A DNA stretch of 64,000 bases. It comes from Mycobacterium florentinum (GTDB taxonomy: Bacteria; Actinomycetota; Actinomycetes; Mycobacteriales; Mycobacteriaceae). A program made the translations under genes and the position numbers. Under the pieces are notes generated by a model. The model worked only from the letters and a program-made list of their open reading frames with translations. It searched no databases and was not told the DNA's origin. Positions 3,938 through 18,028 of the stretch are shown piece by piece; positions within the stretch are counted from its first letter, which is position 1, and each line of letters starts with the position of its first letter. The stretch spans positions 3,720,001 to 3,784,000 of the forward strand of contig NZ_AP022576.1 in the NCBI RefSeq assembly GCF_010730355.1. The letters run 5' to 3'.

Positions 3938-4285
3938 GTGCAACCACACGAGCATCCGCAGGCCACTGCGGTGATGGGCGAATTCAAGAAATTCAGCGAC
4001 GTCCTCGAGGGCGCCTTGAAGCAGAGGGGCACCGGCTCCTTCACCGCCAAGGACGAAACCGAGACGGTCGAGGTGGTCATCAACGGTGACATGTGTGTGA
4101 CGCAGGTAAACATCGAGGACGGCCTGTTGCGGCGGGGCGCCGAGACGGTGCAGGAGCGCATCAACGAGGCGCTGATGAGGGCGAACGCCGAAGCGTCGGC
4201 GAGCATCGAGGCCAGCCAGCTGGCGACCTTCGAAAAGCTGACCGAAATCGTCGACTCGCTGCAGAAGATCACCGGGGAGGACTAG
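3938..4285 (+). CDS. espL: EspL, YbaB/EbfC-like ESX-1 associated protein
   Basis: This 115-residue protein has the same length as the EspL I recall. It shows the YbaB-type core GSFTAKDETETVEV, VINGD and IEDGLL followed by an amphipathic helix rich in Ala and Glu. EspL is a small cytosolic ESX-1 protein that stabilises EspE, EspF and EspH in M. marinum. The start is GTG at 3938, preceded by AAAGGATG. In M. tuberculosis espL lies between espB and espK. Here it follows eccE1, and the espB-espK gap (11350-11501) holds no copy, so the gene has moved relative to espB. Confidence 0.85.
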   Translation: MQPHEHPQATAVMGEFKKFSDVLEGALKQRGTGSFTAKDETETVEVVINGDMCVTQVNIEDGLLRRGAETVQERINEALMRANAEASASIEASQLATFEKLTEIVDSLQKITGED

Positions 4286-4335
4286 GCGAGACGACGTTCG
4301 GCTGCGGGCTAGCGTTCAGGGGATACGGTCAACCG

Positions 4336-4663
4336 GTGCAGCTGTTCGTCGTGGGGCCGCCGAGGTGCGGGCTGACCACCGGCACCGAGCGCAGGAAATG
4401 GCCGACCCGGCCGGCCCGCAGGCGGTCATGAGCGAAATCGCCGGCCCCTGCGCGATCTGGGGCGAGAAGAACCCGAGGTATGCGATGAAGCTGGACATCC
4501 CGCGGCGATGCTTACCCGACGCAATCGTGGCATTCGTTCTGCGCGATCCGCGTGAGGTCGTCAACTCCTGCACCATGCGCTTGCGCCCCGGGACCGCATC
4601 GACTCCGACGATCCAGCCTGGCCGCAGGTCGACGAGCTCGCACAGCGCTTCGGTTCCAACTGA
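4336..4663 (+). pseudogene. Decayed sulfotransferase-family gene
   Basis: Three consecutive coding-like pieces lie in different frames. The first (from GTG 4336) reads QLFVVGPPRCGLTT, like the 5'-phosphosulfate-binding loop of sulfotransferases (usually GxPRSGTT). The second reads WGEKNPRYAMKL and AFVLRDPREVVNSC, like the 3'-phosphate motif. The third, 4583-4663, reads DRIDSDDPAWPQVDEL and ends in TGA. The whole is about 110 codons, whereas the family usually has 250-350, so most of the middle is gone and at least two frame changes remain. The assignment rests on the two cofactor motifs. It directly precedes the GT9 pair. Confidence 0.6.
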
Positions 4664-4669
4664 ACGGGT

Positions 4670-5701
4670 TTGAGAAGCGTGCTCAACGATTTGTTGCAGG
4701 CGGAAAACCCCGCGGTCTGTTTCGTCACCAATGTCGGCGACGCCGTAATGGCGCTGCCAACGTTGCGCGCGCTGGGCGAAATGTTCAGCTCCCCAATCAC
4801 ATTGATCTGTCCCAAGGCCGCATTCGACCTGTGCTTCCGGGAGGTAAGCCGTCGGCTGGTGGATGTCACCGGGCTTCCCCTGACGGGTCCGCCCCCACTG
4901 CCGGGACGACCGGAGCGGCCTCTCGATTACGAGGCACTGGCCTCAGAGATCGGTCCCGTCGACGTCTTCATCGACACATTGCCGTGGAGTTCGTTGTCGA
5001 GCGTGCTTATTCGTCCGCTGCTGCAACGCCTGGCACCCGCGACGAGTATCGGGTTCTCCGCCGGTGTTTACGACGTCGTCGTCCCCAAGGGGGAGTGTCA
5101 CGCCGCGGACCTGACGTTCAAGCTGGCACAGCTATTCGACCCGTCGCTGCGCATCGAGAACTACGCGCAGCCGCTCCCCATACCCGCGACCGTGCAGGAG
5201 CAAGCCCGATCGGCCCGGGCCGCGGCTCCCGCCGGGGCCAAGGTGCTCGTCGTGCACGCGGACAGCAATTGGACGGAGAAGTGCTGGCCGGTAACCAGAT
5301 TCATCGATCTGCTGGACCGGTTCTTGTCGCGCCACCCCGAGTTCGTGGTCTGGGTGGTCGGGATGGGCTACGAGGAGCTCAACGTGGGACGCCACGGTGA
5401 TCGCGTCTTCGCGCAGCTCGGGCTGCCGCTCGACCTCACCATGGGCCTGGTCGCAACCGCAGACCTTTTCGTCGGGATAGATTCCAGCATGCTGCACGCC
5501 GCCGATCTGGCGCGGGTGCCGGGCGTCGGGCTTTTCGGCCCCACGCGCGCCGCGACATGGGGGTTCAGGTTTGCGCCGCATCGTCACGTCGAAATGAGCA
5601 CCATGGCCGATATCACCGTGGAGGCGGCCCTGGATGCGATGGAAGAGCTCGTCGATCGGCGTGATGGCGATGTGCTGCGACGCCACGGCCCGGCCGTTTA
5701 A
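4670..5701 (+). CDS. Family 9-type glycosyltransferase (heptosyltransferase-like), copy A
   Basis: The 343 residues have the two-domain GT-B plan of glycosyltransferase family 9. The N-terminal domain carries TNVGDAVMALPTLRAL, as in the GD-L-PTLRAL motif of WaaC/WaaF-type enzymes. The C-terminal domain carries VVHADSNWTEKCWP and GIDSSMLHAADLARVPGVG followed by LFGPT, the nucleotide-sugar site. GT9 members normally transfer heptose to LPS, which mycobacteria lack, so the acceptor is unknown. The start is TTG at 4670 or GTG at 4679; no strong ribosome site is visible. It begins 6 bp after the sulfotransferase relic and is followed by a close paralogue. Confidence 0.8.
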   Translation: MRSVLNDLLQAENPAVCFVTNVGDAVMALPTLRALGEMFSSPITLICPKAAFDLCFREVSRRLVDVTGLPLTGPPPLPGRPERPLDYEALASEIGPVDVFIDTLPWSSLSSVLIRPLLQRLAPATSIGFSAGVYDVVVPKGECHAADLTFKLAQLFDPSLRIENYAQPLPIPATVQEQARSARAAAPAGAKVLVVHADSNWTEKCWPVTRFIDLLDRFLSRHPEFVVWVVGMGYEELNVGRHGDRVFAQLGLPLDLTMGLVATADLFVGIDSSMLHAADLARVPGVGLFGPTRAATWGFRFAPHRHVEMSTMADITVEAALDAMEELVDRRDGDVLRRHGPAV

Positions 5702-5725
5702 GCTCTCGCTGGAGGTTGGTCGGGT

Positions 5726-6769
5726 TTGAGCGAGATCACTGTTCTACAAGGTGGGCGCAGGTCAAGCGTCGAGCCCGACATGCTTGCCGGCCTGCTGCGG
5801 GCACGCACCCCGGCGGTGTATTTCTCCACGCTGATCGGGGACGCGCTGCTGACGCTGCCGACGCTGCGGGCGCTGGCCGAAATGTTCACCGCCCCAATCA
5901 CGTTGATCTGCCCCAAGATCGCCTTCGACCTTTGCTTCCACGCGGTCAGCCCCCGCCTGATCGACATCACCGGTATCGCCCCCGGCGGACCTCCGATCGG
6001 GCGGGAAGCAAGTCAAACCCTCGACTACGACGCCCTGGTGGCCGACATCGGCGCCGTAGACGTCTTCATCAACGCTGTCCCGTGGGACGTCCCGTCGAAC
6101 CTTTTCATTCAGCCCCTGTGGCGCCGCCTGGCTCCCACCACGAGCATCGGTTTCCCGACCGACGACGACTACGACATCATCATCCCGAGAGATCTGCCGC
6201 ACGCGGCCGACCTGACCTTCAAATTGGCCCGGCTGTTCGATCCGTCGCTGCGGCTCGAAAGCTACGACCAGCCAGTGCCTCTCGCGCCGTCCGTGCAACA
6301 CGCGGCACGCTCCATGCGCGCCGCCGTGCCCGCCGGGGTCAAGGTGCTGGTGGTGCATGCCGACGCGGGCTGGACGGAGAAACGATGGCCGGCAACCAGA
6401 TTCATCGACGTGCTGGACCGCTTTTTGTCGCGCCACCGCGACTTCGTGGCCTGGGTGGTGGGGATGGGCGACGAGGAACTCAATGTCGGGCGTGAGCGCG
6501 ATCGCGTCTTTCCCCATCTCGGGCTGCCGCTCGACCTCGCGATGGGCTTGGTCGCGCACGCGGATCTGTTCCTGGGTGTCGACTCGGCGATGCTGCACGC
6601 CGCCGATCTGGCGAAGGTGCCCGGCGTCGGCCTTTTCGGGCCGACCCGCCCTGAACTGTGGGGTTTCAGATTCGGGCCGCACCGGCACGTCGATAGGAGC
6701 TCCATGACGGAGATCACCGTGGAAGACGTGCTCGACGCGATGGAAAGCCTTGTCGCAGAGCATGTCTAA
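5726..6769 (+). CDS. Family 9-type glycosyltransferase (heptosyltransferase-like), copy B
   Basis: This 347-residue tandem paralogue is, by eye, roughly two-thirds identical to copy A over its whole length. It keeps the GT9 features: IGDALLTLPTLRAL, FDLCFHAVSPRL, VVHADAGWTEKRWP and LGVDSAMLHAADL followed by LFGPT. The start is TTG at 5726, 10 bp after GGAGG at 5711-5715. The same CGGGTTTGAG context occurs at the start of copy A, so the duplicated unit included the start region. It overlaps the DUF4254 gene by 8 bp, which suggests translational coupling. Substrate and acceptor are unknown. Confidence 0.82.
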   Translation: MSEITVLQGGRRSSVEPDMLAGLLRARTPAVYFSTLIGDALLTLPTLRALAEMFTAPITLICPKIAFDLCFHAVSPRLIDITGIAPGGPPIGREASQTLDYDALVADIGAVDVFINAVPWDVPSNLFIQPLWRRLAPTTSIGFPTDDDYDIIIPRDLPHAADLTFKLARLFDPSLRLESYDQPVPLAPSVQHAARSMRAAVPAGVKVLVVHADAGWTEKRWPATRFIDVLDRFLSRHRDFVAWVVGMGDEELNVGRERDRVFPHLGLPLDLAMGLVAHADLFLGVDSAMLHAADLAKVPGVGLFGPTRPELWGFRFGPHRHVDRSSMTEITVEDVLDAMESLVAEHV

Positions 6770-7385
6770 CCGAAGCGACGGGCCGCGGCGCCCGTATGAC
6801 GGCGTCGACCTCGGCGCGCTCGGTGGTTCGACGAATGAAGATCTTGTCGCCGCGGTGCGCCAGTTCTACGACATCGCCATGTTGTGGCACCGGGAGGAGC
6901 CGCCAGATTCCCCGGATCGCGGGGACATTGCGGCGAAGGCACTGCACCTGCATGCGCTGAACTTTGCGCTGTGGCATCACGAAGACGCCGTCCGCCGACC
7001 GGGCGCCGACGACCATGAGGTGGCTCTCCAGAAGCGGCGCATCGACAATGTCAACGCGCTGCGAAACGCGGCCATCGAAGACATCGACGCCGGCCTGCTT
7101 GATGGCGTGGAGCTGAATCCAACCGCACCGCTGCACACCGAAACTCCCGGCACCATCGTCGACCGGCTATCCGTTCTTGCGCTGCGGATTGTGCACACGA
7201 ATCGTGCGGACCGGCCCGGTGCCCGCCTGGCGGTGCTCGACGAGCAGTACGCCGATCTGTTCGGCGGGCTTGAGCAGTTTCTCGCGCGCCTGCTGGCCGG
7301 AGAGGTCCGCTTCAAGGTGTACCGGCAATTCAAGTCGCCGGCCCAACGTAACTACTGCGATTTGTTCGAGGAGCGCGATCAATAG
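6762..7385 (+). CDS. DUF4254 family protein
   Basis: This 207-residue, mostly helical soluble protein resembles the DUF4254 family. Visible stretches are LHALNFALWHHEDAVR, KRRIDNVNALRNAAIEDID, TETPGTIVDRLSVLALR and a C-terminal YRQFKSPAQRNYCDL. I know no established biochemical role. DUF4254 genes tend to sit beside glycosyltransferases in bacterial glycan clusters, which fits here: it overlaps GT9 copy B by 8 bp (ATG 6762, GT9 stop 6767-6769). Its 3' end overlaps the convergent GT2-like gene by 7 bp. The family call is from motif memory. Confidence 0.7.
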   Translation: MSNRSDGPRRPYDGVDLGALGGSTNEDLVAAVRQFYDIAMLWHREEPPDSPDRGDIAAKALHLHALNFALWHHEDAVRRPGADDHEVALQKRRIDNVNALRNAAIEDIDAGLLDGVELNPTAPLHTETPGTIVDRLSVLALRIVHTNRADRPGARLAVLDEQYADLFGGLEQFLARLLAGEVRFKVYRQFKSPAQRNYCDLFEERDQ

Positions 7386-8155
7386 GCCGCGGCCGCCCAC
7401 CATCGCGTCCAGTCGAGGTACGGGTCCTTGTGTCCTTCGTACTGAAGATGAAGTGCCAGTGACGGTATCGGGGTGAAGAGGGCAACCTGCTCGCGCCAGA
7501 TCGTATTGATGGTCGATGCCTCGAAGATGTGGTGCTCTTGGCCGTAGGGCGTGCTCGAGTGTCGGGCAAGCAACTCGAAGAGCTCCCAATTTCGTCCCAG
7601 CGTCTCGAGCTCTATCCAGCATGTGTTGGTGGTGTGCGTGTTCGTCCGCCAGTGCCGCTCGGTGCCGTATACGACTCGGCAGTCCTCCCGGCTGAATATC
7701 GGGTGCCGATAGTTATCCGGGTCGTCATAGGGGTGCAGTGCTACTTCCCGGCCGCCCAGTTTGTCCCGGAGAAGCTTGTGTACGTCGAACATCTCCTGGA
7801 TCGCCGACGGGGTGTGCAAGTAGTCGTCCTCGACGAGATAGACGAGCTCGCGCGCATCGTCGCGCGCCCTGGAGAATGAGGCTAGGCAGGACGCGTTGTA
7901 TCCCCGGTCATCGAGCGCGATGAATTCGACCGGGTGGTCGCAGGTTTCGAGTATCCGGTGCAGGGTCGGCAGCACCTCGGGGGACGAGTGATCGTCGAAG
8001 ACCCGCAAGATGATGTCGCCCTCCGCGCGATTGATCGACGTGACGAGCGATTGCGTACAGCGAAGCATGACTTCGCTCTTCGGTGCATCGACATAGCGCT
8101 GCCCACCGTGCACGTTGATCTCGGAGTGGGTCTGAAGGTGAATGTCGAGTTTCAT
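7379..8155 (-). CDS. GT2-like glycosyltransferase
   Basis: The 258 residues read as a GT-A fold glycosyltransferase. An N-terminal nucleotide-binding region contains INRAEGDIILRVFDDHSS and FIALDDRGYNASC, followed by ELVYLVEDDYLHTP, where EDD occupies the place of the metal-binding DxD motif. The rest (HWRTNTHTTNTCWIE, YGQEHHIFEAST) is a plausible acceptor domain. No signal peptide or membrane helix is seen. ATG at 8155 overlaps the stop of the upstream TauD-like remnant in a 4-bp ATGA, so the two were one operon on the minus strand. Donor and acceptor cannot be read from sequence. Confidence 0.72.
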   Translation of the reverse strand: MKLDIHLQTHSEINVHGGQRYVDAPKSEVMLRCTQSLVTSINRAEGDIILRVFDDHSSPEVLPTLHRILETCDHPVEFIALDDRGYNASCLASFSRARDDARELVYLVEDDYLHTPSAIQEMFDVHKLLRDKLGGREVALHPYDDPDNYRHPIFSREDCRVVYGTERHWRTNTHTTNTCWIELETLGRNWELFELLARHSSTPYGQEHHIFEASTINTIWREQVALFTPIPSLALHLQYEGHKDPYLDWTRWWAAAAY

Positions 8156-8427
8156 ATCGTCACCTGTCGCAGGACCGGAGCAGCATCGTGCGAAAGACCG
8201 CGGACCAATCCGAGTCCGAGCCGCGGATACCCGAGGTTATCTCCATGAGCAGCAACCGTTCTAGGTTCGTGGACGTGGTGAGTCACCCTGAGCTGCAGCA
8301 GCGCTGCGCGCAGCCGATCCACCACGCTCGGGTCGAGATCGCCGCCGAGGCGCACGCCATCGATGCGCGCGCCAATGTGGGTGCCCAATTGGGTGACGGT
8401 GAGGGCGATTTCCGCCGGCCTTACCAT
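8152..8427 (-). pseudogene. TauD/TfdA-type dioxygenase, internally deleted remnant
   Basis: The 91-codon frame begins at ATG 8427 behind a strong AGGAGGGA site. Its first 38 or so residues (LTVTQLGTHIGARIDGVRLG, then a Leu/Ala helix) match the N-terminus of the Fe(II)/2-oxoglutarate dioxygenases of the TauD family. The last residues, PVLRQVTI, resemble the usual C-terminal RVLRRVTI. Family members have about 280-300 residues, and the HxD...H iron-binding motif region is absent. The best reading is a large internal deletion that left both ends; the short middle part is not recognisable. It cannot be an active oxygenase. Confidence 0.5.
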
Positions 8428-8618
8428 CGCGGTGGTCCCTCCTGAATACGGGCGTCTCCGGTGGCGCGTGATGCGGGTGCTGCATTGACGCACATGCGCG
8501 TGGCGATGCGAAATATACCCATCCGTACCTCTTCGGGCGGCATATCGCGATTCGCCAGACAACCGTGGCCATTGCGGATGGCGTTCGTGCTGACCACATA
8601 GTTCGCTAGCCGACCCAA
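8421..8618 (-). CDS. Small unknown ORF upstream of the TauD-like remnant
   Basis: This frame of up to 65 codons (TTG start at 8618, with the frame also open further upstream) ends in TAA at 8421-8423. It overlaps the TauD-like start by 7 bp, the spacing of coupled genes. The composition looks coding, with stretches such as LANYVVSTNAIRNGHG, PPEEVRMGIFRIATRM and CVNAAPASRA. I do not recognise the family. It may be the C-terminal remains of a longer gene cut off where fkbM now starts on the other strand at 8634. Confidence 0.35.
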   Translation of the reverse strand: MGRLANYVVSTNAIRNGHGCLANRDMPPEEVRMGIFRIATRMCVNAAPASRATGDARIQEGPPRW

Positions 8619-8633
8619 TGTTAGTGTTACGCA

Positions 8634-9353
8634 ATGGGTTTGTATTGGATCGCGAACCGCGCCGAAAAGGAGGTGGAGAACTACCGTTCCGAGTCGGAGT
8701 GGCGGCGCAAATTCGTGAGCGAACTCAAATCCCGCCGAGTCGATGTCGTGCTCGATGTCGGCGCTAATTCAGGGCAATACGCCGGCCGCCTTCGCGAGGC
8801 GGATTTCGACGCCCGCATCGTCTCGTTCGAACCCCTCTCCGAGCCATTCGCCCGGCTGCGGCGCAGCGCCACGAAGCTCCCGCCCTGGGATTGCCGGCAG
8901 TGTGCCCTCGGCGATTTCGACGGGGCGGTCTCGATGAATGTCGCGGGCAACGCCGGCGAGAGCAGCTCCATCCTGCCGATGCTGCAACGACATCGGGACG
9001 CGTTCCCCAGGGCAAATTACATCGGCACCGAAGACGTGACCGTGTCCCGGCTCGACTCGATTGCCGCCGAGGTCCTGGTGCCGAGCGAGGTGGCGTTCCT
9101 CAAAATCGATGTGCAGGGGTTCGAGAAGCAGGTGATCGACGGTGGCCTAGCGACGATCGGCGAGCGTTGCGTCGGCGTGGAATTGGAGCTGTCCTTCGAA
9201 CCCTTGTATGACGGCGGAATGCTGATTCAGGAGGCGCTCGACCGCATGGATTCTTTGAGTTTCATGTTAAAGGGATTGGTGCCCGGCTTCGTGGATATGC
9301 GCACCGGCCAAGTGCTGCAGGCCGATGGCGTGTTTTTCCGCGGCGACGATTGA
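8634..9353 (+). CDS. FkbM-family SAM-dependent methyltransferase
   Basis: The 239 residues show the FkbM methyltransferase pattern: SAM-binding motif I VLDVGANSGQYAGRL, acidic motif IVSFEPLSEPFARL, and motif LKIDVQGFEKQVIDGG followed by VELELSFEPLY. These enzymes usually O-methylate sugars or polyketides, and mycobacterial relatives sit in glycolipid (LOS/GPL) clusters. It is the last intact gene of the inserted cassette and is transcribed away from the small ORF, TauD-like and GT2 genes. ATG at 8634 has no obvious ribosome site. Its presence beside three glycosyltransferases suggests methylation of the sugar they transfer; that link is inference. Confidence 0.85.
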   Translation: MGLYWIANRAEKEVENYRSESEWRRKFVSELKSRRVDVVLDVGANSGQYAGRLREADFDARIVSFEPLSEPFARLRRSATKLPPWDCRQCALGDFDGAVSMNVAGNAGESSSILPMLQRHRDAFPRANYIGTEDVTVSRLDSIAAEVLVPSEVAFLKIDVQGFEKQVIDGGLATIGERCVGVELELSFEPLYDGGMLIQEALDRMDSLSFMLKGLVPGFVDMRTGQVLQADGVFFRGDD

Positions 9354-9681
9354 CGTCGGGTCGAACCGCACCGACATCGGGACAACTCACCCCCGCCGAA
9401 ATCGCGGTCTTACCGAATGGACCGCGGGTGAATGACCGGGGATCGGAGTTTAACCGCCGATGTCGGCGAGCTGAATCGGATACCGCTCGGCTCAGAGTGT
9501 CTCGTCATCTCGGAAAATTGCTCTGTGAAACCGCAAGAGCCGCAACGATCGGGTGCAAAAATCGGTGCACGGCGGCCCTGTTTGGTGGATTACGATTGCA
9601 CTCGATCGTGGTCGGAGCGCCCATCGCACCGTCCGCATGTCCTCGCAAGACGAAAGAGGTGGTCAGTGATGACACCGCATC
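9354..9681 (+). other. No gene seen; cassette-to-espB boundary region
   Basis: These 328 bp between fkbM and the eccE1-tail relic hold no frame with recognisable protein motifs. The ORFs that cross it change composition along their length and have no family-like stretch. The segment probably contains decayed DNA and part of the espB promoter region. Confidence 0.5.
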
Positions 9682-9873
9682 TTGCTGCCAGGCGGGACGG
9701 TCACCCGGTCCGGTCGCCTGGGATCGCGACGTCCGGCGATGTACCCGCCGGGCGAGCAAGCGATCTTGCGGCACAACACAATCGGCATTCCGCGAGTTCG
9801 TCGGTTGCCGATCGGGCCGGCGCCGGCAGGAAATGAACTCCCGAATACAGGGCCTTGGGCACAAGGAGAATGA
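9682..9873 (+). pseudogene. Decayed duplicate of the eccE1 3' end
   Basis: One frame ending in TGA at 9871-9873 contains PGGTVT and then AILRHNTIGIPRVRRLPIGP. The intact EccE1 here has AGGTVT and VILRNNVISTPRHRQLPIQP at the corresponding places near its C-terminus. The M. tuberculosis protein, as I remember it, has ILRHNVIGTPRHRQLPI, even closer to the relic. The roughly 40 residues that should lie between the two motifs are shortened and unrecognisable. The stop is 6 bp from the espB start. In the usual gene order eccE1 directly precedes espB, so this looks like the ancestral eccE1 tail left behind when the cassette came in. Confidence 0.62.
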
Positions 9874-9879
9874 GCCGAA

Positions 9880-11349
9880 ATGACGCAGACGGTAAACGTC
9901 GAATACCAAGAACTCATGGCGCGAGCCGACGAAATCGAGGCGGCGCTCCCGAAGATGCCCGTGGGCAACCCGCAGGCGCCGTGCGCTCTCTCATTTGTCC
10001 GCGATGCCGCCGTACAAATCGCGATCAACGCCGACTCGTTGCGGCTGTACGTCCAAGCGTGCCAGCGGGAGTGGAGTTCGCTGGCGAAGTCCCTGCGGAA
10101 CGCGGCCAAGGCGTATGAGGAAGCCGACGAGGGTGCGGCCGAGGACATCAACGCCATCAACATGGACGGGACGTCCGGCTCCTCGGCGAAGGTGTCCGCC
10201 AACGACAAGGTCTCGCTGATGTGCGACCCGGACTACATCCCGGCTCCGCCACCGCCGCCGCCGCCACCACCGCCGTTTCAATACCCCTACTACGAGGTGA
10301 GACAGGCGGCGACAGACATCGAATCTCCCGACCAGGGGACGGCGTTTCGGGCGTTTGCCGCGGAGTGGAACAGCTACCAGCTGAAATTCCAGCAGCTGGC
10401 CTATCGGTTCCGGCCGTTCGTGAACTGGGAGGGTGACGCGAGGGCACAGGTCGAGTCGAATTTCACGTCACAGAAGCAGTGGATATTCGGCATGGTCACG
10501 CAGTTCACGACGCTGGCCAGACAGGCCCAATTGGTCGCTGACGCGCACAAAAAGGTCAAGGCCACCACCCCCGTCTACGACTCGGAGACCTACTCGCAAG
10601 ACGGCGAGCATCCGACGTCTTACGAAGTACGGCAGTGTGACTATTGGTACAAGTACTACGTCGAACACAAGAGTCCGTATACGTACATGGCTCTGGACTG
10701 GTACAAGACTTTGCAGACAAAGTCGGAGACCGCGTTGGCGACCTATATGTCGGCCGCTCAAATTCCCCTGGCGCCGGCAAATCCGACCGCACCATACGGC
10801 GCGTATGTCATACCCGATCCGGCCGATGTTCCGGACGTTCCGGACCTTCCTGACGGATCCCTGCCCACCGATCCGTCGGCCAACATGCCGATGATGCCCA
10901 CCATGCCGACGCTGCCGTCCGGGATGGGCGGTACACCGCAAACACCGCCGACCCCGGATGCCCAGGCGCTGGTGGACAAGGCGATGCAGAAGCAAGGCCT
11001 GGGCAAGGGCGGCGCCGGCGGAATGAAGCCGGCCTCGGTCGGCGGAATGGGCGGAATGCCCAAGATGCCACTGCAAGGCGCCACCGGAGACGGCGAAGCG
11101 TCGTCACGCCCGGCCGCGGCAGCGGGCCCGGGGCCGGCGACAGCGGGCCTGGGCAAAGGGCTTCCCGGCGTCGGCGGAGCGGGCGGCGGTATGGGCGGCA
11201 TGCCGATGGGCGGGCAGGGCGACAAAGGCGGCGGGAAGGGCAAGCGCATACCGGGAGCCGACGAGGACGCGCTCTACACCGAGGAGCGGGCGTGGACCGA
11301 GGGCGTCATCGGTAATCGTCCGCGCAAGGGCCCGGCCGAAAAACAATGA
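9880..11349 (+). CDS. espB: EspB, secreted ESX-1 substrate
   Basis: The protein has 489 residues. The helical PE/PPE-like N-terminal part contains the export motif YEEAD (AKAYEEADEG, YxxxD) and NWEG (WxG-type turn). The C-terminal half is rich in Gly, Pro and Met and ends in the EspB-typical YTEERAWTE and VIGNRPRK. EspB is secreted by ESX-1, processed by MycP1 and forms ring-shaped oligomers. An unusual run of ten prolines interrupts the linker between the two helical parts at about residues 122-134. ATG 9880 follows AAGGAG at about 8-10 bp. espK follows after 152 bp; espL is not between them. Confidence 0.92.
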   Translation: MTQTVNVEYQELMARADEIEAALPKMPVGNPQAPCALSFVRDAAVQIAINADSLRLYVQACQREWSSLAKSLRNAAKAYEEADEGAAEDINAINMDGTSGSSAKVSANDKVSLMCDPDYIPAPPPPPPPPPPFQYPYYEVRQAATDIESPDQGTAFRAFAAEWNSYQLKFQQLAYRFRPFVNWEGDARAQVESNFTSQKQWIFGMVTQFTTLARQAQLVADAHKKVKATTPVYDSETYSQDGEHPTSYEVRQCDYWYKYYVEHKSPYTYMALDWYKTLQTKSETALATYMSAAQIPLAPANPTAPYGAYVIPDPADVPDVPDLPDGSLPTDPSANMPMMPTMPTLPSGMGGTPQTPPTPDAQALVDKAMQKQGLGKGGAGGMKPASVGGMGGMPKMPLQGATGDGEASSRPAAAAGPGPATAGLGKGLPGVGGAGGGMGGMPMGGQGDKGGGKGKRIPGADEDALYTEERAWTEGVIGNRPRKGPAEKQ

Positions 11350-11501
11350 CTCAAAGCGACCGGTCGTCCGCAGTCGATGCGTACGTTTTGGTCGCCTACG
11401 TTCGCGAATTTTGCCGCAGTTAGCCTGTCCCGACCTCGATTACGCTTATTAACCATGATGTCTGGCATGCAGCACGTCCCGCGTTGCGAGAGGAGTAGCT
11501 G

Positions 11502-13718
11502 ATGGGCCTCGCAAAGCCGACGGGGGGATATGCCGCGCAGATGATCGATCCGGGCGGTTGGCCGGATGTCGATGAGCAGGCCTTTTACGACCGGGCCCAG
11601 CAGTACACGCAGGTGCTGCGACAGGTCACCGACGTTTTGGAGGCCTGCCAGTCTCAGCGGTCGGAAATCTTCGACGCGGGTATCTGGTCGGGCAGCGCCG
11701 CGGGTGCCGCCAACACGCAGCTCGGGACGCTGATCGACGGTTTGGTGACGCTGCAGAACGGGCTGGCCACCGTGATTACCTGGCACAAGTATGTGGCCCG
11801 GACGATCGTGCAGGCCAAGTCGGACGTCACCGACAACGTTGTCGAGGCTCATCGGACGATCGCGACGCTGGAGAAGGACACCAGCATGGACGACGCCGAA
11901 CGCATCCAGCAGATCAACACCGTGGTGACCACGACGCACGGGGCCAATGTCAGCATCGTCGACGGCACCGCCGCCCAGATCTTGGTGAGCAAGGCCTGGA
12001 AGCCGCCGGCCAACGCGCTGCAGGAGCTGCTCGACCAGAAGGCGCCACCGCCGGTCACCATCCCGGACGGTCCCGTCGCGCCGCCATCCCCGGGTCCGAG
12101 GCCCACGCCGCCGGGCGGTGGAGGATTCAAACCACCCGTCACCCCGGGCGGTGGGGGAGTCACACCTCCGACCCCAGGTGGTGGTGGGCTCACACCGGTG
12201 ACGCCTCCGCTCGATGGCGGCGGTCTGCAGCCGCCGTCCCCGCTTGGGCCGCGGCCGACGCCTGCGCCGCCCAGCCCGGCGGTGCCGGGCGGCGGATCGC
12301 CGGCGCCCCTGGGCCCGGCGGCTCCGGCAGTGCCGTTGACTCCGGCGGCCGGGCTGCCACAGGCCGGTGCCGGTCCGTCCGGCGGCCCCAAGGGAGTGAC
12401 ACCCGCGGCCGCGTCGGGGCCCGGGGTGATGCCGGCATCTGTGGCGCCGAGCGAGGAATCGGCAGCCGCGCATGCCGGCGGGGCCGGCGTGCCGACCGGG
12501 CCGATGGGGGCCGGCGGATCGAGTGGTGGCAGCGGCGGACCGGGCGGAAGGTCGGCCGCACCAGTCGGGGAGAAGTCCGGCGACAAATCGGCCAGTGCGC
12601 GACCGGCATCCAGCAGCCGTCGCACGAACCAGAGCAAGCCCCGTGCGCAATCGATGCATCCAGGCGCGGAGGTCGCGGAAGCCATTGTGTCGACGGCAGC
12701 GGTGATCCCGGTTTCGGCCGCACGGCTCGAACGCGACGCGCGCGCCGATGCCGCGAAGGCTGACGCGGCGCGCCGCGCCGGGCCCGATGCGCTGCAATTG
12801 GCGCGCCGCATCGGTGCCGCGCTGAACGCACCAGACGTTGCCGGCGGAACCGACCTCGGCTTCTTCTGGGTGACCGGGGTGACCGCCGAGGGCGCGATCG
12901 TGGTGGCCAACAGCTATGGGCTGGCCTACATTCCGGACGGGGTGGAGTTACCGGAGAAGGTCTATCTGGCCAGCGCCGACGAAACGATCCCCGCCGGCGA
13001 GCGGGCACGCTGGGCCACGTACCCGGTGCTGGCGGTGCAGGGCTGGGCGGCCCACCACGAAATGGAACTGCGGGCCGTGATCGGCACCGAGGCGCAGTTG
13101 GCCAATTCCGACGCCGGGGTGGCGACGATTGTTCTGCAGCCGGACGACATTCCGGAAACGGGCGACATGATCGGCCGGCCCCGGCTGGCGGTTGTGGATT
13201 CCGAGGCGGCGGAAAGGTTGGCGGCGACGCCCGACACACGCCTGGCCGACCTGCTGCCGCCTCCCCCGGAGGGCGCCGGGCCGGCACCGGAGCCGCAGCT
13301 CGCGCCCGAGCCCGAGCGTGCGCCCGAGCCCGCCGAAGTGGTGGATCCCCAGGCGGCGGCCGTGCTTCTACCGCCGGGCGTGGGGTCGAAGCAAATGGCG
13401 GAGTTGCTCGCCCAGATGCCGGTTCCGGGAGCCGATGCCGGTGCACCGGCTGCCGCTGGACCGTCCGACGATCGGTTCATGCTGTGGTTCGAGTTGATGA
13501 AGCCGATGGCCAGCGACGCGAGCGGCCGCCAGGCCGCGCACCTGCAGGCCTTCCGGGCCTACGCCGCGCACGCCGAAGAGGTCCTGCTACGGGAAGCGCA
13601 CACCACGGTCGACCCGGCGGATCAGCGCAGCGCGGTCGCCGACTGGATGTACTGGAAGTACGTCGCCGAGCTGCTCAACGCGGCGCTGGCGCAAGCGCCC
13701 GTCTTGGCCCCGGCGTAG
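11502..13718 (+). CDS. espK: EspK, ESX-1 secretion-associated protein
   Basis: The product has 738 residues. The N-terminal helical domain (about 1-190) includes [17 protein letters not shown] and a WSG turn at W62 as in WxG-type proteins. A Pro/Gly-rich stretch (about 190-390, with repeated GGGG-PP blocks) and a C-terminal alpha/beta domain (about 430-738, [13 protein letters not shown]) follow. EspK binds the C-terminal part of EspB and is thought to escort it to the secretion machine. ATG 11502 follows GAGAGGAG. The gene converges with espJ. Confidence 0.9.
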
Positions 13719-13752
13719 TAGCGCGGTACGGGTCAGCGGTACGAGCCGACGC

Positions 13753-13766
13753 CGGGCGAAAGCCCG
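13753..13766. terminator. Short GAAA-loop hairpin between convergent espK and espJ
   Basis: CGGGC-GAAA-GCCCG forms a 5-bp GC stem closed by a GNRA-type tetraloop in the 70-bp gap between the two stop codons. There is no T-run. It could end transcription from both sides, but the stem is short. Confidence 0.35.
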
Positions 13767-13788
13767 ACGCTCAAGGGCGCCCAGGCGG

Positions 13789-14520
13789 TTACAGGCCGAT
13801 CTCTGACTGAGTCGTTCCCGGGCGCGCGCCGGCCGCTGGCTCGACGGGAGCGCTGCCGGAGCCCGGTGTGCCCGACGCGGCGCCCTCCTTCGTCGTGGCG
13901 TCGACCAATCGCGACTCGGCGGCCGGTGCGTCGTCCGGGTTCGTGGTGTCGTCCTTTTTGGTGTCGTCGGCAAGCTTCGCCGGCGCCGCGCCCGCGTTTC
14001 CCATGCCGCTGCCGGCCTGCTGGGCGGTCGACATGACGGTCTGCAGGCCCTGGGTGAGAGGTTGCACCGCCTGTGACATGGCAGAGAGCTGATTGAGATT
14101 GCTCGGTACCGCCGGCTGCGGCTTTTTGTCGGGCTTCTTGCCGTCGTCGGGCTTCTTGTCAGCGGTCTCGGCACCCAGCAGGTTGGGCGCCGCGCCGGCC
14201 GGCTGGTCCGTCGCACCGGGTTCGGAAGCCGCCAGGAACTGGACCTTGCCGACGTTCTCGCCAAGCCGTTGGTCGGTCTGGGCGTACATGTCGGCGGCGG
14301 TGACCATTTTCGATCCCGTATTGGTAAGGGCGGCTTGCGCTTCCGGCAACCCCTTAACCACGGGCGACTCGATTATCGGCAACGTCTCGTTGATCGCCGC
14401 CGACACGGAATCCGCTCCGGTCGCCGACATCGGCGGCGGAGCGGCAGGCAACTGCTGGTCGCGAACGGCCACTCCCGCAGCTTTGAGACGAGCAGGATCA
14501 ACCACCAGTGATTCAGTCAT
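13789..14520 (-). CDS. espJ: EspJ, ESX-1 secretion-associated protein
   Basis: The 243-residue protein matches EspJ at its N-terminus (SLVVDPARLKAAG, ESPVVKGLPEAQAAL) and carries DMYAQTDQRLGENV, which contains a YxxxD export motif after a helical hairpin. The rest is a low-complexity Ala/Pro/Asp/Lys-rich tail. EspJ is an ESX-1 substrate of unclear function. It is the last gene of the minus-strand run esxA-espI-eccD1-espJ, 108 bp after eccD1. ATG 14520 is preceded by a purine-rich AGGGACTG. Confidence 0.85.
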   Translation of the reverse strand: MTESLVVDPARLKAAGVAVRDQQLPAAPPPMSATGADSVSAAINETLPIIESPVVKGLPEAQAALTNTGSKMVTAADMYAQTDQRLGENVGKVQFLAASEPGATDQPAGAAPNLLGAETADKKPDDGKKPDKKPQPAVPSNLNQLSAMSQAVQPLTQGLQTVMSTAQQAGSGMGNAGAAPAKLADDTKKDDTTNPDDAPAAESRLVDATTKEGAASGTPGSGSAPVEPAAGARPGTTQSEIGL

Positions 14521-14628
14521 CGTTGCAGTCCCTTTGCGTGCGCGGCCATCAGACAGATTTTACCGAAGGCGCCGCATGCCCAAGTGCAGCAATATTTCTC
14601 GGCATCCGGCATGCACTGTCCATCTTTC

Positions 14629-16197
14629 TCAGAATTGGATATTGCGAACTGTGTCGTAAACACCGGTTATCCAGAGCAGCAAGGGAACGATCGCCGCGAC
14701 CACCGCGCCGTCGAACAATTCCAATGACCGCTTCATCACCGGCGTAATACGTCGAACCCCGGCGGCCGCCGCGACCACCGCTAGTGCAACCAGGGCCGCG
14801 ACCAACAGAACGACCACGAACCAGCGAGCGCTCTGCGGATACCAGATGCTCAACCGGATGGTCACCCCGATCGGGATGGCGACCGTGGCCGCCAGCAACG
14901 ACCACGCACACCAGGGCTCGGCGTACAGACGCGACCTGAACGCGCACATCATCGTCACCAGTCCCGCCACCACCAGGCTGTGCACGAAGAAGTGTCCCCG
15001 TACCAAGATCCCGATGACACCGGCAACCAGAACCAGGGTGCCCGCCGTGATGAAACCGATCAGCAGCTGTTTGGCCACCTGGCTGCGCTCGGTGAGCCGC
15101 GCGGCCGAATCGGGCACCGACGCGATGATGGCCTGCCAGGTCCGCGTTTCTTTGTCTTCGGGCGCCTCTTCGCCGGCAATGGGATCGAGTAATTCCTCGT
15201 GTTCGACGGTCTCGCCGGGAGCCGGAATGGGCGGCAGGGCGATCCGCGCGAAGACGACGGTCAACTTGGCGGCGTTCGTCACGGTGAACAAGCCGAACAC
15301 GATCGCCAGGGCCGGAACCCATTGCTGCCAACCGTATCCGTACGCGAAGGCCGCCGCGGTGAGCGTGAGAGACGTGACCGCGGCAAACGACGCAAGCTCG
15401 GTACGGTGGCGAGGGCCGCCGCGCGTGATCAGCGTCAGGAACAAAACGGCCGCAGCGCCGGCGGCGAGCTGTGGCGGCCCAAACGAACTCGTCATTCCGC
15501 GTGGCCGCGGGATGGCCATCGCCACGGCCACCACGATCAACGGGAACGCGGTCGCCAGCAGGCTCTCCGACAAGTTCGGATTCCGGTAGAACTTGTTGGC
15601 GGCCCAGCTGCCCATCAGGACAAGCAATCCCGCAGCGCCCAACCCGATCGGCCACCACATGTGGTGGCCGTTGGCCACCCACGCCACGGCCCCGATTCCG
15701 GTCATTGCCATCGTCACGACCGGAATTGCCACCCCGACAAAACGATTCAGTGCCGCCCGGTCGAACTCCGGCGATTCGTCAAGCACCGCGATCGCGTCGA
15801 TGACGTCCTCGACGAGCGGGCGGTACCGTTCGGTGCGGCTCACCGACACCAGGGTGAGCAGCGACCCGTCGACGACGACCGCGTCATCGAGGGATTGGTC
15901 GGCTTGCAGCGGCGGGGCGCCCGGGCGGGCAAACGTCCACGCGCCTTGCGCGGCGAAGTCGAAACCGGCGAGAACGTCCGCGGGTGTTTCGCCCAGGATT
16001 TCCGCCACCACCGCGACCGTGTCGTCGATATAGGTTTCGATCGGTGCCGTCGACGGCAGCACGACATCGGTCATCCGTCGGCCGGTGAGGATCGTTACCC
16101 GCGTGGTCGAGGGCTTGGCGGGGGCAGCGCCCGGGGCGGCCGGAGCGGCCGCGGCTCCGGCACCGGCAGCAGAATCAGTGGCGGTGGGCGCGCTCAA
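14629..16197 (-). CDS. eccD1: EccD1, ESX-1 multi-spanning membrane channel component
   Basis: The product has 522 residues against about 511 in M. tuberculosis. An Ala/Pro-rich N-terminal extension leads to a ubiquitin-like cytosolic domain (TRVTILTGRRMTDVVLPS at about residues 32-49) and then about eleven transmembrane helices (from VGVAIPVVTMAM near residue 153 to the C-terminus). EccD dimers form the bulk of the membrane part of each ESX protomer. The start ATG at 16197 overlaps the espI stop by 4 bp (ATGA), so translation is probably coupled to the espI ATPase half even though espI is split between frames. Confidence 0.93.
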   Translation of the reverse strand: MSAPTATDSAAGAGAAAAPAAPGAAPAKPSTTRVTILTGRRMTDVVLPSTAPIETYIDDTVAVVAEILGETPADVLAGFDFAAQGAWTFARPGAPPLQADQSLDDAVVVDGSLLTLVSVSRTERYRPLVEDVIDAIAVLDESPEFDRAALNRFVGVAIPVVTMAMTGIGAVAWVANGHHMWWPIGLGAAGLLVLMGSWAANKFYRNPNLSESLLATAFPLIVVAVAMAIPRPRGMTSSFGPPQLAAGAAAVLFLTLITRGGPRHRTELASFAAVTSLTLTAAAFAYGYGWQQWVPALAIVFGLFTVTNAAKLTVVFARIALPPIPAPGETVEHEELLDPIAGEEAPEDKETRTWQAIIASVPDSAARLTERSQVAKQLLIGFITAGTLVLVAGVIGILVRGHFFVHSLVVAGLVTMMCAFRSRLYAEPWCAWSLLAATVAIPIGVTIRLSIWYPQSARWFVVVLLVAALVALAVVAAAAGVRRITPVMKRSLELFDGAVVAAIVPLLLWITGVYDTVRNIQF

Positions 16198-18028
16198 CGA
16201 CGTTCACTCCTGTCGAAATCGTCGGACAGTGCGGCGGCTAGTTCCAGGATCTTACGCTTGTAGATGGGGTCGAGCAGGCCTAACTGGATCTCCGTACCGG
16301 CCGCGATGTGCTTGTCCCAGGGCAACACGATGACCCGTCCGGCTCGAACGTACTGCTCGAATTGCTGGGATAGTTCGGCGACAGCGATGTCGGTATCTCC
16401 CGGCGACACATGGTTGATCACCACGCACGCGCGGCTCAGTAGCGCCTGGTGGCCGTGATTGCGCAACCAGTCGATCGCGACCGCGGCTTGCCGGGCGGCG
16501 TCGATCGACGCGCTGGTCACGATCACCGCGGCGGACGCCGTCGAGAGCACCCCACGCGTCACCGGGTCGAACAGGCCTGCCCCGCAGTCGGCCAGGACGA
16601 GGTTGTAGAACTTCGACACCGCATCGGACGCGTAGTGCCAATCAGCTTCGCTGAATGCACGCCGTGCCGTGCTGTAGTCCTCTGCCGGAAGTACTTCCAG
16701 ATTGACCGCATTCGCACTGGTATGCGCACGGACATCGTTGTAATGCGTTAAGTCCTTGTCGGCCAACAGGTCTGCGATGGTTGCATCAGACTGGCGCCCG
16801 GCCCGGTCGGCGAGGTTTCCGCAACTCGCATCGGCATCGAAAGCCAGAATCCGATCGCGCCGGACCTGGGCGTAGACCGAGCCCAGGGAGACCGTCACGG
16901 TCGTCTTCCCGACTCCGCCCTTCAGACCCAACACCGCGATCTGATACGAACCGCGGGGGCTACGGCGGATTCGATCCCGTAGGTCCAGGTCGTATTTCTC
17001 GTCGCGAGACAGGCCCACGTTGATGCGCGTCAGCTTGTGGACCCAGCGCCGCCAACCCCGGCGCGAAACCATCCGGGTCGCAGACTTCTTCGCGGGCTTG
17101 ACCGCGATGCGGGAAGTCGCATCCGCGACGGGCTGCTCACCGGGCGGGTGGGCGGGGCCGAATCCGGTTGCACCGCAACGCGTTGAGTGGGCGGTAATTG
17201 CGGTGCGCGGCCGGTTGGCCCCGGGGGAGTCGGACGCGGGCGTGGCGGCGGAGCGGGTTTCCCTCGGCGCTTGTCCGGGTTGGGCCCATGGCCGTGCGCA
17301 GGGTTGCCGGTGGGGGCGCGTCGGGTCTCGGCGACATCGCGCGGGCGCGCGCGGCGCGCGGGTGGGGGAGGGGCCGCCGGCGGGACGGGTTCGATCGGCG
17401 GTGGTTTGGGCCGGGTCGGTGGTGGCTGGTTGTTCCAGTCGACCGGCATGGGCGGCCGTGGGGGTTCGGGCCGGGCCGGTGATGGTTCGGCCCGGGCCGG
17501 TGGTGGTTGGTCCTCCCAGTCGACGGGCATGGGTGGCCGCGCGTGGCCATTGGGCACCGGTGGGCTCACCGGCATCGGTGCGGCACTCGTGTCGAAGCCG
17601 GAATCCAGATCGAAGTCCGGTCCCGCCTCCGGAATTTCGGTTCCGTCAGGGTGCGCGAAGAGCTCGTCGTAGCTGACCGGCATCGGGGGTCGCGGTGGGC
17701 CGGGCGGCGCCGGTGGTGGTTGGGTCGCGTCGACCGGCATTGGGGGGCGGTGGGTTTCGGGCCCGGCCGACGGCGGGTCACCCGGGTGCACCGGCATGGG
17801 TGGCCGCTGGGGTTCAGGCCGGGCCGGCGCAGGCGGTTCGGTCCAGTCGACGGGCATCGGAGGGGGCGCCTCGGCGTTGGGCTTGGGCATTCCCACCGGC
17901 ATAGGCGGTGCAGCAGCGGGCGCATCGACGTCGAACCCGGCATCGATATCGAAACCCGAATCCGCCGTCGCATCCGGTATTTCGCCCCCCGCGGGCGGCT
18001 GAAAGAGCCGGTCGTAGTCGGCCCCCAT
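16194..18028 (-). CDS. espI: EspI, proline-rich MinD/ParA-like ATPase, apparently frameshifted
   Basis: The gene is split. The N-terminal half starts at ATG 18028 (MGADYDRLFQPP) and is proline-rich with about eight PMPV repeats. The C-terminal half lies in another frame and carries the EspI ATPase: WVHKLTRINVGLSRDEKYDL, Walker A GLKGGVGKTT, FDADASCGNLADR, LADCGAGLFDP, and the end LAAALSDDFDRSERR. The change of frame falls near 17141-17160, in a C-rich run; adding one base there would join ...PTRP to GEQPVADATSR and restore one protein of about 610 residues. EspI normally has about 666. It modulates ESX-1 when ATP is low. Genuine mutation and sequence error cannot be told apart here. Confidence 0.8.

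Follow-up and report, generated by a model that had tools for sequence, protein, structure and literature searches.

Gene content of the espL–espB interval

The window examined in this study is a 64,000-nucleotide stretch of the Mycobacterium florentinum genome, taken from a single contig of 6,219,859 bp, and our subject is a cassette of glycan-modification-type genes that lies between espL and espB in the ESX-1 type VII secretion locus of this window. The interval extends from 4286 to 9879 (window coordinates, as below), or approximately 5.6 kb; a first-pass annotation made from the sequence alone had placed it between the same two genes and had estimated about 5.4 kb. That annotation had listed two GT9 glycosyltransferases, a DUF4254 protein, a GT2 glycosyltransferase, an FkbM methyltransferase, and relics of a sulfotransferase and a TauD dioxygenase. 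Pfam and blastn searches bore out all of these except the GT2 assignment: an open reading frame (ORF) of that kind is present on the minus strand (7379 to 8155), but its match to PF00535 is weak (E 0.0035; 17.7 bits, under the cut-off of 23.3), and we therefore call it GT2-like only.

The remaining features are on the plus strand unless stated otherwise. Preceding the cassette is a YbaB/EbfC-like gene, a copy of espL (3938 to 4285; PF02575, E 6.7e-8), which relatives have at the same place. A remnant of sulfotransferase 1 follows (4336 to 4669, start approximate; Sulfotransfer_3, E 4.7e-6 on the ORF at 4365-4673), and then the two GT9 genes, GT9a (4670 to 5701; PF01075, E 1e-9) and GT9b (5726 to 6769; PF01075, E 1.7e-11), which pass the family cut-off of 22 bits with 38.5 and 44.4 bits. 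The DUF4254 gene (6750 to 7385; PF14063, E 4.3e-32; 111.4 bits, cut-off 27) overlaps GT9b by 20 bp in a different frame; its product is predicted to be all-helical and is the likely partner of GT9b, some homologues of which are fused to DUF4254. Beyond the GT2-like gene is a deletion scar on the minus strand (8156 to 8633), recognised by blastn blocks to the M. triplex locus described below, with the end of a gene of the 218-amino-acid type and the start of TauD. The FkbM-family methyltransferase gene (8634 to 9353; PF05050, E 3.3e-20; TIGR01444, E 2.6e-28) is followed by an intergenic stretch in which no gene was recognised (9354 to 9879); most of it aligns by blastn, at 74–78%, to loci of relatives (L113, L114, L033, L034, L115 and L116; L and G numbers denote loci and genomes). 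Next come espB (9880 to 11349; PF21856, E 4.9e-40; PF18625, E 2.4e-21), which encodes the PE-PPE fold substrate proposed here as the acceptor, and a gene (11502 to 13718, from tblastn maps) that we take to be espK on the grounds of its position.

Among the scanned cassette ORFs of the window and of M. triplex (Pfam and NCBIfam), no integrase or transposase was recognised, and neither was a lipid-carrier transferase, flippase or polymerase. In the interval no promoter-like site was found and no RNA family scored above its cut-off; terminator-like sites are more numerous in shuffled sequences. The tetranucleotide distance of the cassette is somewhat raised (54 of the 59 windows compared lie lower), which is not decisive.

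In M. triplex (L034) the order is sulfotransferase 1, GT9a, GT9b, DUF4254, GT2, a 218-amino-acid gene, sulfotransferase 2, DUF6065, TauD, FkbM and espB, with five open genes beyond those kept in the window. Sulfotransferase 1 is open there (261 amino acids, L034:7082-7867; PF13469, E 4.7e-17), DUF6065 and TauD have matches of 4.7e-88 and 9.4e-52, sulfotransferase 2 scores 26.5 bits, slightly below the Pfam cut-off of 27, and the 218-amino-acid protein matched no family above cut-off in Pfam or NCBIfam. Relative to this locus the window has a single deletion of approximately 3.2 kb, which spans the 218-amino-acid gene into TauD and removes sulfotransferase 2 and DUF6065; the blocks of the scar map to L034 11333-11449 and 14651-14918. 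The TauD remnant has no Pfam match, yet it aligns to the open TauD of M. triplex, and separated blastn blocks to relatives indicate that sulfotransferase 1 was shortened through internal losses. By this comparison, the cassette in the window is a reduced, not an ancestral, form. Some other loci are without FkbM or without GT2, and in five (L044, L050, L051, L120 and L121) GT9 and DUF4254 are the only members of the set present. Because gene content varies among loci in this way, we regard GT9 and DUF4254 as the core and the other genes as additions that come and go.

Distribution across the genus and linkage to espB

We searched 396 genomes of the genus, scoring up to five candidates per genome for GT9 (E ≤ 1e-20) and up to three for EspB. 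DUF4254 was found in 29 genomes and a GT9b-like GT9 in 29, with 28 common to both; GT2 occurs in 21, and every copy adjoins DUF4254. In all 29 GT9 genomes, the GT9 copies listed sit in Esp/ESX gene clusters. An EspB match (E ≤ 1e-15) is present in 27 of the 29 DUF4254 genomes, which are the 27 cassette genomes, and in 26 of them ESX-1 machinery accompanies the cassette. Twenty-four of these 26 ESX-1 cassettes lie between eccE1/espL and espB, and two (L050 and L051) lie just ahead of mycP1; the contig of G001 stops before espB, and the cassette of G392 is divided over two contigs. Named carriers include M. triplex, M. ahvazicum, M. europaeum, M. nebraskense, M. scrofulaceum and M. sphagni. GT9 was present in 28 of 61 genomes with EspB at E ≤ 1e-30 versus 1 of the 335 others.

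These results change the picture given by the first-pass annotation, which knew of no other ESX-1 locus with such a cassette and considered that a glycolipid island might have landed here by chance. Twenty-five other sampled genomes have a related cassette in ESX-1, and one more (G203) has it apart from that locus. The occurrence of the core genes in 29 of 396 genomes, the placement of every GT9 listed and the lack of a mobility gene recognised among the scanned cassette ORFs speak against a chance island; a mobile island was also considered and rejected. The single contig and the recurrence in relatives likewise dispose of an assembly join.

GT9 is found at another place in seven genomes; in G076 this copy is broken and is the only GT9 listed. 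All seven copies form clusters with espB and espL. In six of these second clusters espK directly adjoins GT9 and espB is 3.6–5.1 kb away; in the seventh (L177), GT9 has espB as its neighbour, at 0.3 kb, and espK went unmatched. Pfam confirmed the EspA/EspE, EspC and EspB families in four matching genes of L178, L181 and L182. There was no match to eccA, B, C, D, E or mycP in the 18–19.5 kb read for the second clusters. On this pattern the weight shifts from the secretion machine to its substrates. In G203 (L122, L184 and L185) a cassette of sulfotransferase, GT9, DUF4254 and GT2 lies with espL, espB, espK and espJ, and the ESX-1 and EccB/EccC queries all went unmatched within the surrounding 58.5 kb; this cassette is detached from ESX-1. 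Twenty stretches around other espB copies (L128 to L147) had no GT9 match. Three of the Esp clusters among them (L129, L138 and L139) have EspBs outside the GT9-linked clade described next, and L128 and L129 are two more espB paralogues of the window's genome, one of which adjoins espK.

To compare EspB sequences, we used 55 rows, from which fragments, duplicates and shifted sequences had been dropped (L033, L035, L038, L041, L124, L126, L143, L146 and L179). In a tree made with the columns of the sextet below removed, all 31 GT9-linked EspBs (25 from cassettes and six from second clusters) fall in one clade of 36 with support of 100/98, and 19 of the 55 lie outside it. Seven positions passed our filter, and six of them, with E80 omitted, make up an aromatic/histidine sextet (Y138, H223, Y248, W256, Y260 and W274). 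The full sextet is kept in 22 of 25 cassette-linked and 6 of 6 second-cluster EspBs, and in none of the six unlinked EspBs of GT9-bearing genomes, the four second EspBs in cassette loci or the 14 EspBs of GT9-negative genomes, and Ser or Thr occupies position 98 (T98 of the window, in the linker) in 30 of the 31 linked EspBs versus 22% of 18 EspBs from GT9-negative genomes and second copies; the alignment used for these counts is also the one from which the sextet and T98 were picked, so that the counts are descriptive. The Fisher value computed for the sextet is accordingly no independent test, and the Fisher values at genome level take no account of kinship. Position 344 behaves alike (90% versus 33%). 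These positions may point to where a sugar is accepted or an enzyme docks. A Ser/Thr-rich acceptor tail in EspB was looked for and not found, and tail composition fails to separate the groups.

An EspB match is missing from two DUF4254 genomes, those of M. helveticum (G165) and G230. The former has GT9 beside EccC/EccB genes, and its DUF4254, which carries an in-frame stop, is on a separate contig near a PPE-like ORF. In G230, GT9 was unmatched, DUF4254 is again near a PPE-like ORF, and the ESX-1 remnant consists of a short mycP1 match and then espK and espJ matches. The PPE-like ORFs were recognised by eye and had no NCBIfam match. Both genomes are decayed or rearranged; the neighbours are putatively ESX-2. 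Upstream of the window (G000:C1:3691500-3729000; L172 and L127), only EccD-, MycP- and EccE-like matches were found beside eccA2, and no EccB/EccC ORF was seen by eye in the 19.5 kb before; the ESX-2 of the window's genome may be partial.

In seven ESX-1 loci free of the cassette (L134, L135, L137, L141, L142, L144 and L147), the gap between eccE1 and espB is about 100–180 bp. It is longer, with other content, in L136 and L140; in L140 (G026), the junction is occupied by approximately 8 kb (9710-17750) of unrelated genes, which by eye resemble PPE and polyprenyl-synthase genes. M. numidiamassiliense has the ESX-1 cassette region twice (L037 and L038), inverted, with equal match identities and about 175 kb apart on one contig, which is a duplication or an assembly effect. 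The locus L142 (G261) has a tandem espB-espL-espB-espL after eccE1, and this could account for those cassette loci in which espB has espL on both sides. In L039, L043, L044, L120 and L121 another espL comes after espB; none was matched in the window's stretch.

Pairing, folds and predicted location of the cassette proteins

GT9 and DUF4254 are on one polypeptide in 36 of the 120 GT9b homologues listed. Among the neighbours of DUF4254 in other phyla, no family is as frequent as GT9, with 19 of the 93 scanned (130 ORFs were listed, and those scanned come from 31 of 59 non-mycobacterial loci), and the neighbours are largely glycosyltransferase and polysaccharide genes. These associations suggest that GT9 and DUF4254 are likely to be a functional pair. 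In two loci of other Mycobacteriales (L166 and L167), a kinase-like ORF comes after DUF4254 and then, as judged by eye, one that is GT9-like.

The AlphaFold2 model of DUF4254 is all-helical, with a predicted local distance difference test score (pLDDT) of 84.5 and a predicted template modelling score (pTM) of 0.79; comparison with the PDB gave no significant relative by sequence and no fold match at E ≤ 0.001. In a model of a fusion homologue (P0044, not the window protein), strands and helices alternate and the C-terminal part is helical. Its best Foldseek match was the GT9 structure 3tov (2.6e-11), followed by WaaF and WaaC, with TibC at 1.6e-5. The packing of DUF4254 against GT9 in this model was set aside because of its pTM of 0.58. 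The GT9 motifs GD.....P, K.W and D....H are present, with G38, D39, P45, K219, W221, D286 and H291 invariant in 35 fusions (alignment A4, which holds 35 of the 36); both motif regions align weakly to 3tov, and the motif residues presumably have catalytic roles. Alignment A1 was made without L027 (in-frame stop), L031 (cut) and the duplicate copy L032. In the GT9 tree, made without broken or short rows and without loci excluded beforehand, the GT9a clade has support of 100/99.

The lipopolysaccharide (LPS) heptosyltransferases WaaC and WaaF have the GT9 family and fold in common with the cassette. Against the NCBIfam equivalogs for LPS heptosyltransferases I–III, the window GT9s score about 40 bits (best 41.8), far below the cut-off of 185 (185.3), and mycobacteria are not known to have LPS. 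Heptose was considered as the sugar donor and is unsupported for the window's genome, in which HldE was not found; GmhA-like proteins were found in 9 of 10 genomes, all under the curated cut-off, and none in M. triplex. The label 'heptosyltransferase' for GT9 should not be taken literally.

Ratios of nonsynonymous to synonymous substitution (dN/dS) relative to M. triplex were 0.16 for GT9a, 0.13 for GT9b, 0.26 for DUF4254, 0.12 for GT2 and 0.21 for FkbM, compared with 0.18 for espB and 0.11 for eccE1. The kept cassette genes are under purifying selection. In Kyte-Doolittle profiles of the five cassette proteins no 19-residue stretch exceeded 1.6 (maximum 1.55), and because there is no strongly hydrophobic segment, all five are probably cytoplasmic. 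Since ESX-1 is described as exporting folded proteins (PMC4769845), modification ahead of export is plausible.

Glycosylation of an Esp substrate as the proposed function

We propose, at a probability of roughly one half, that the cassette is a cytoplasmic module for glycosylation of ESX-1 Esp substrates and acts on EspB. In this mechanism the soluble GT9–DUF4254 pair (GT9b and DUF4254, with GT9a as a duplicate) would act in the cytoplasm, placing one or more initial sugars on an Esp substrate, and the acceptor would most likely be EspB of one clade. GT2 would then lengthen the glycan, FkbM (in relatives, also the sulfotransferases, TauD and DUF6065) would tailor it to a final structure that is species-specific, and the folded protein would be exported by ESX-1. 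Gene content and recurrent placement with espB suggest that carriers may sugar-coat proteins before exporting them, and, as in a dedicated protein-glycosylation locus, a glycosyltransferase is encoded recurrently within the cluster of an exported protein. The first-pass annotation had itself raised a glycan linked to ESX-1 substrates, and of its two ideas this is the better one, supported by association, including GT9 in espB clusters without a machinery match in the stretches read. What is inferred is that the acceptor is a protein and is EspB, that transfer comes ahead of export, and in which sequence the steps follow. A narrower version, in which a type VII system has protein glycosylation of its own, GT9–DUF4254 acts on EspB, perhaps at the PE-PPE linker near T98 by way of the aromatic patch, and swaps of tailoring genes make the glycan species-specific, is put forward as a tentative possibility.

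Several points weigh against the glycosylation of EspB. The support consists of genomic association. Because the GT9–EspB association may be traceable to one event, the genome counts are not independent; 33 of the 61 EspB genomes, moreover, have no GT9. Five EspBs inside the clade, from GT9-bearing genomes, have no GT9 in the stretch read, and four second EspBs in cassette-bearing ESX-1 loci, 5.2–9.5 kb from GT9, fall outside it. In six of the seven second clusters it is espK, in place of espB, that stands directly beside GT9, so that 'linked' is used loosely, and DUF4254 was unmatched in the second clusters. The EspB residues were picked post hoc, clade membership alone may explain the contrasts, and no acceptor repeat is visible in EspB. 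For the enzymes, GT9 relatives of known role are mostly LPS enzymes, the domain arrangement of the fusion model is not confident (pTM 0.58), and HldE, for ADP-heptose synthesis, turned up in 2 of the 10 genomes searched for it and not in that of the window.

Other explanations would account for part of these data. GT9, GT2, FkbM and sulfotransferases are typical of glycolipid and surface-glycan clusters, and the DUF4254 neighbours in other phyla fit that setting, so that the cassette could comprise glycolipid or cell-surface glycan genes that were merely co-inherited with ESX-1. We consider this unlikely, because GT9 recurs in espB clusters outside ESX-1, no listed copy in the 396 genomes lies away from Esp/ESX genes, and the scanned cassette genes include none recognised as serving lipid synthesis, transport or sugar-nucleotide supply. 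A neutral insertion at a permissive eccE1–espB site is very improbable: another insertion of about 8 kb does occupy that junction in L140, and the window keeps sulfotransferase 1 and TauD only as decayed remnants, but dN/dS values of 0.12–0.26 for the kept genes, recurrence at other esp clusters and the GT9–DUF4254 fusion speak against it.

The same module might instead serve another Esp or ESX acceptor (EspE/EspF-type, PE/PPE or EspK), with EspB a mere neighbour. The direct contact of espK with GT9 in six of seven second clusters, where EspA/EspE- and EspC-family genes and espL are also present, would fit this explanation, as would the reported stabilisation of EspE, EspF and EspH by EspL in M. 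tuberculosis (PMC6319747) and the position of DUF4254 near a PPE-like ORF (by eye), not espB, in M. helveticum and G230. In 24 of 26 ESX-1 cassettes and in G203, however, the module has eccE1/espL on one side and espB on the other, and the linkage tracks one EspB clade, which makes a different acceptor rather unlikely in our judgment.

The glycosylation of EspB proposed here would have partial parallels in known systems. In the TibC/AAH autotransporter heptosyltransferases, as would be the case for the cassette, a GT-B sugar transferase modifies an exported protein (PMC4358343), and the fold of TibC was matched by the fusion model (E 1.6e-5). TibC is described as having its own beta-barrel, thumb and iron-finger (PMC4358343), and the protein it modifies is a type V autotransporter. 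The cassette differs from TibC/AAH in its DUF4254 partner, its tailoring genes, its association with type VII secretion and a genome in which HldE was not found. The enzymes that glycosylate serine-rich-repeat adhesins come from other families than those of the cassette. Clusters for these adhesins (accessory Sec; Gtf1/Gtf2, Gtf3, dGT1, GalT2 and Gly) are described as carrying out stepwise O-glycosylation from one gene cluster (PMC5207161), inside the cell and before export (PMC7948813). They differ in their Sec-type export and Ser-rich repeats, and EspB is without such repeats.

The mycobacterial enzyme PMT (Rv1002c) is different from those of the cassette and is not known to be linked to a type VII locus. 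The O-mannosylation that it performs is likewise protein glycosylation (PMC7053730). Because glycosylation of PPE68 has been reported (PMC3227618) and twenty glycosylation events have been counted on ESX components of the tuberculosis complex (PMC6393673), sugars may reach ESX proteins in other ways. Among the literature matches listed, none reported such a cassette or dedicated genes for glycosylation in ESX-1; one of these matches deals with ESX-1 and lipooligosaccharide genes of M. marinum (PMC13354803), and 'glycos' is absent from the text of a study of ESX evolution (PMC4791881). A self-identity gene of the M. smegmatis esx1 locus was considered as a parallel and dropped; the paper contains neither 'glycos' nor 'EspB'.

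Few bacterial secretion systems have been studied as much as ESX-1. If Esp substrates are glycosylated as proposed, species differences in EspB function and antigenicity would perhaps be written in sugars, and DUF4254 would gain a testable role as the partner of GT9 in several phyla.

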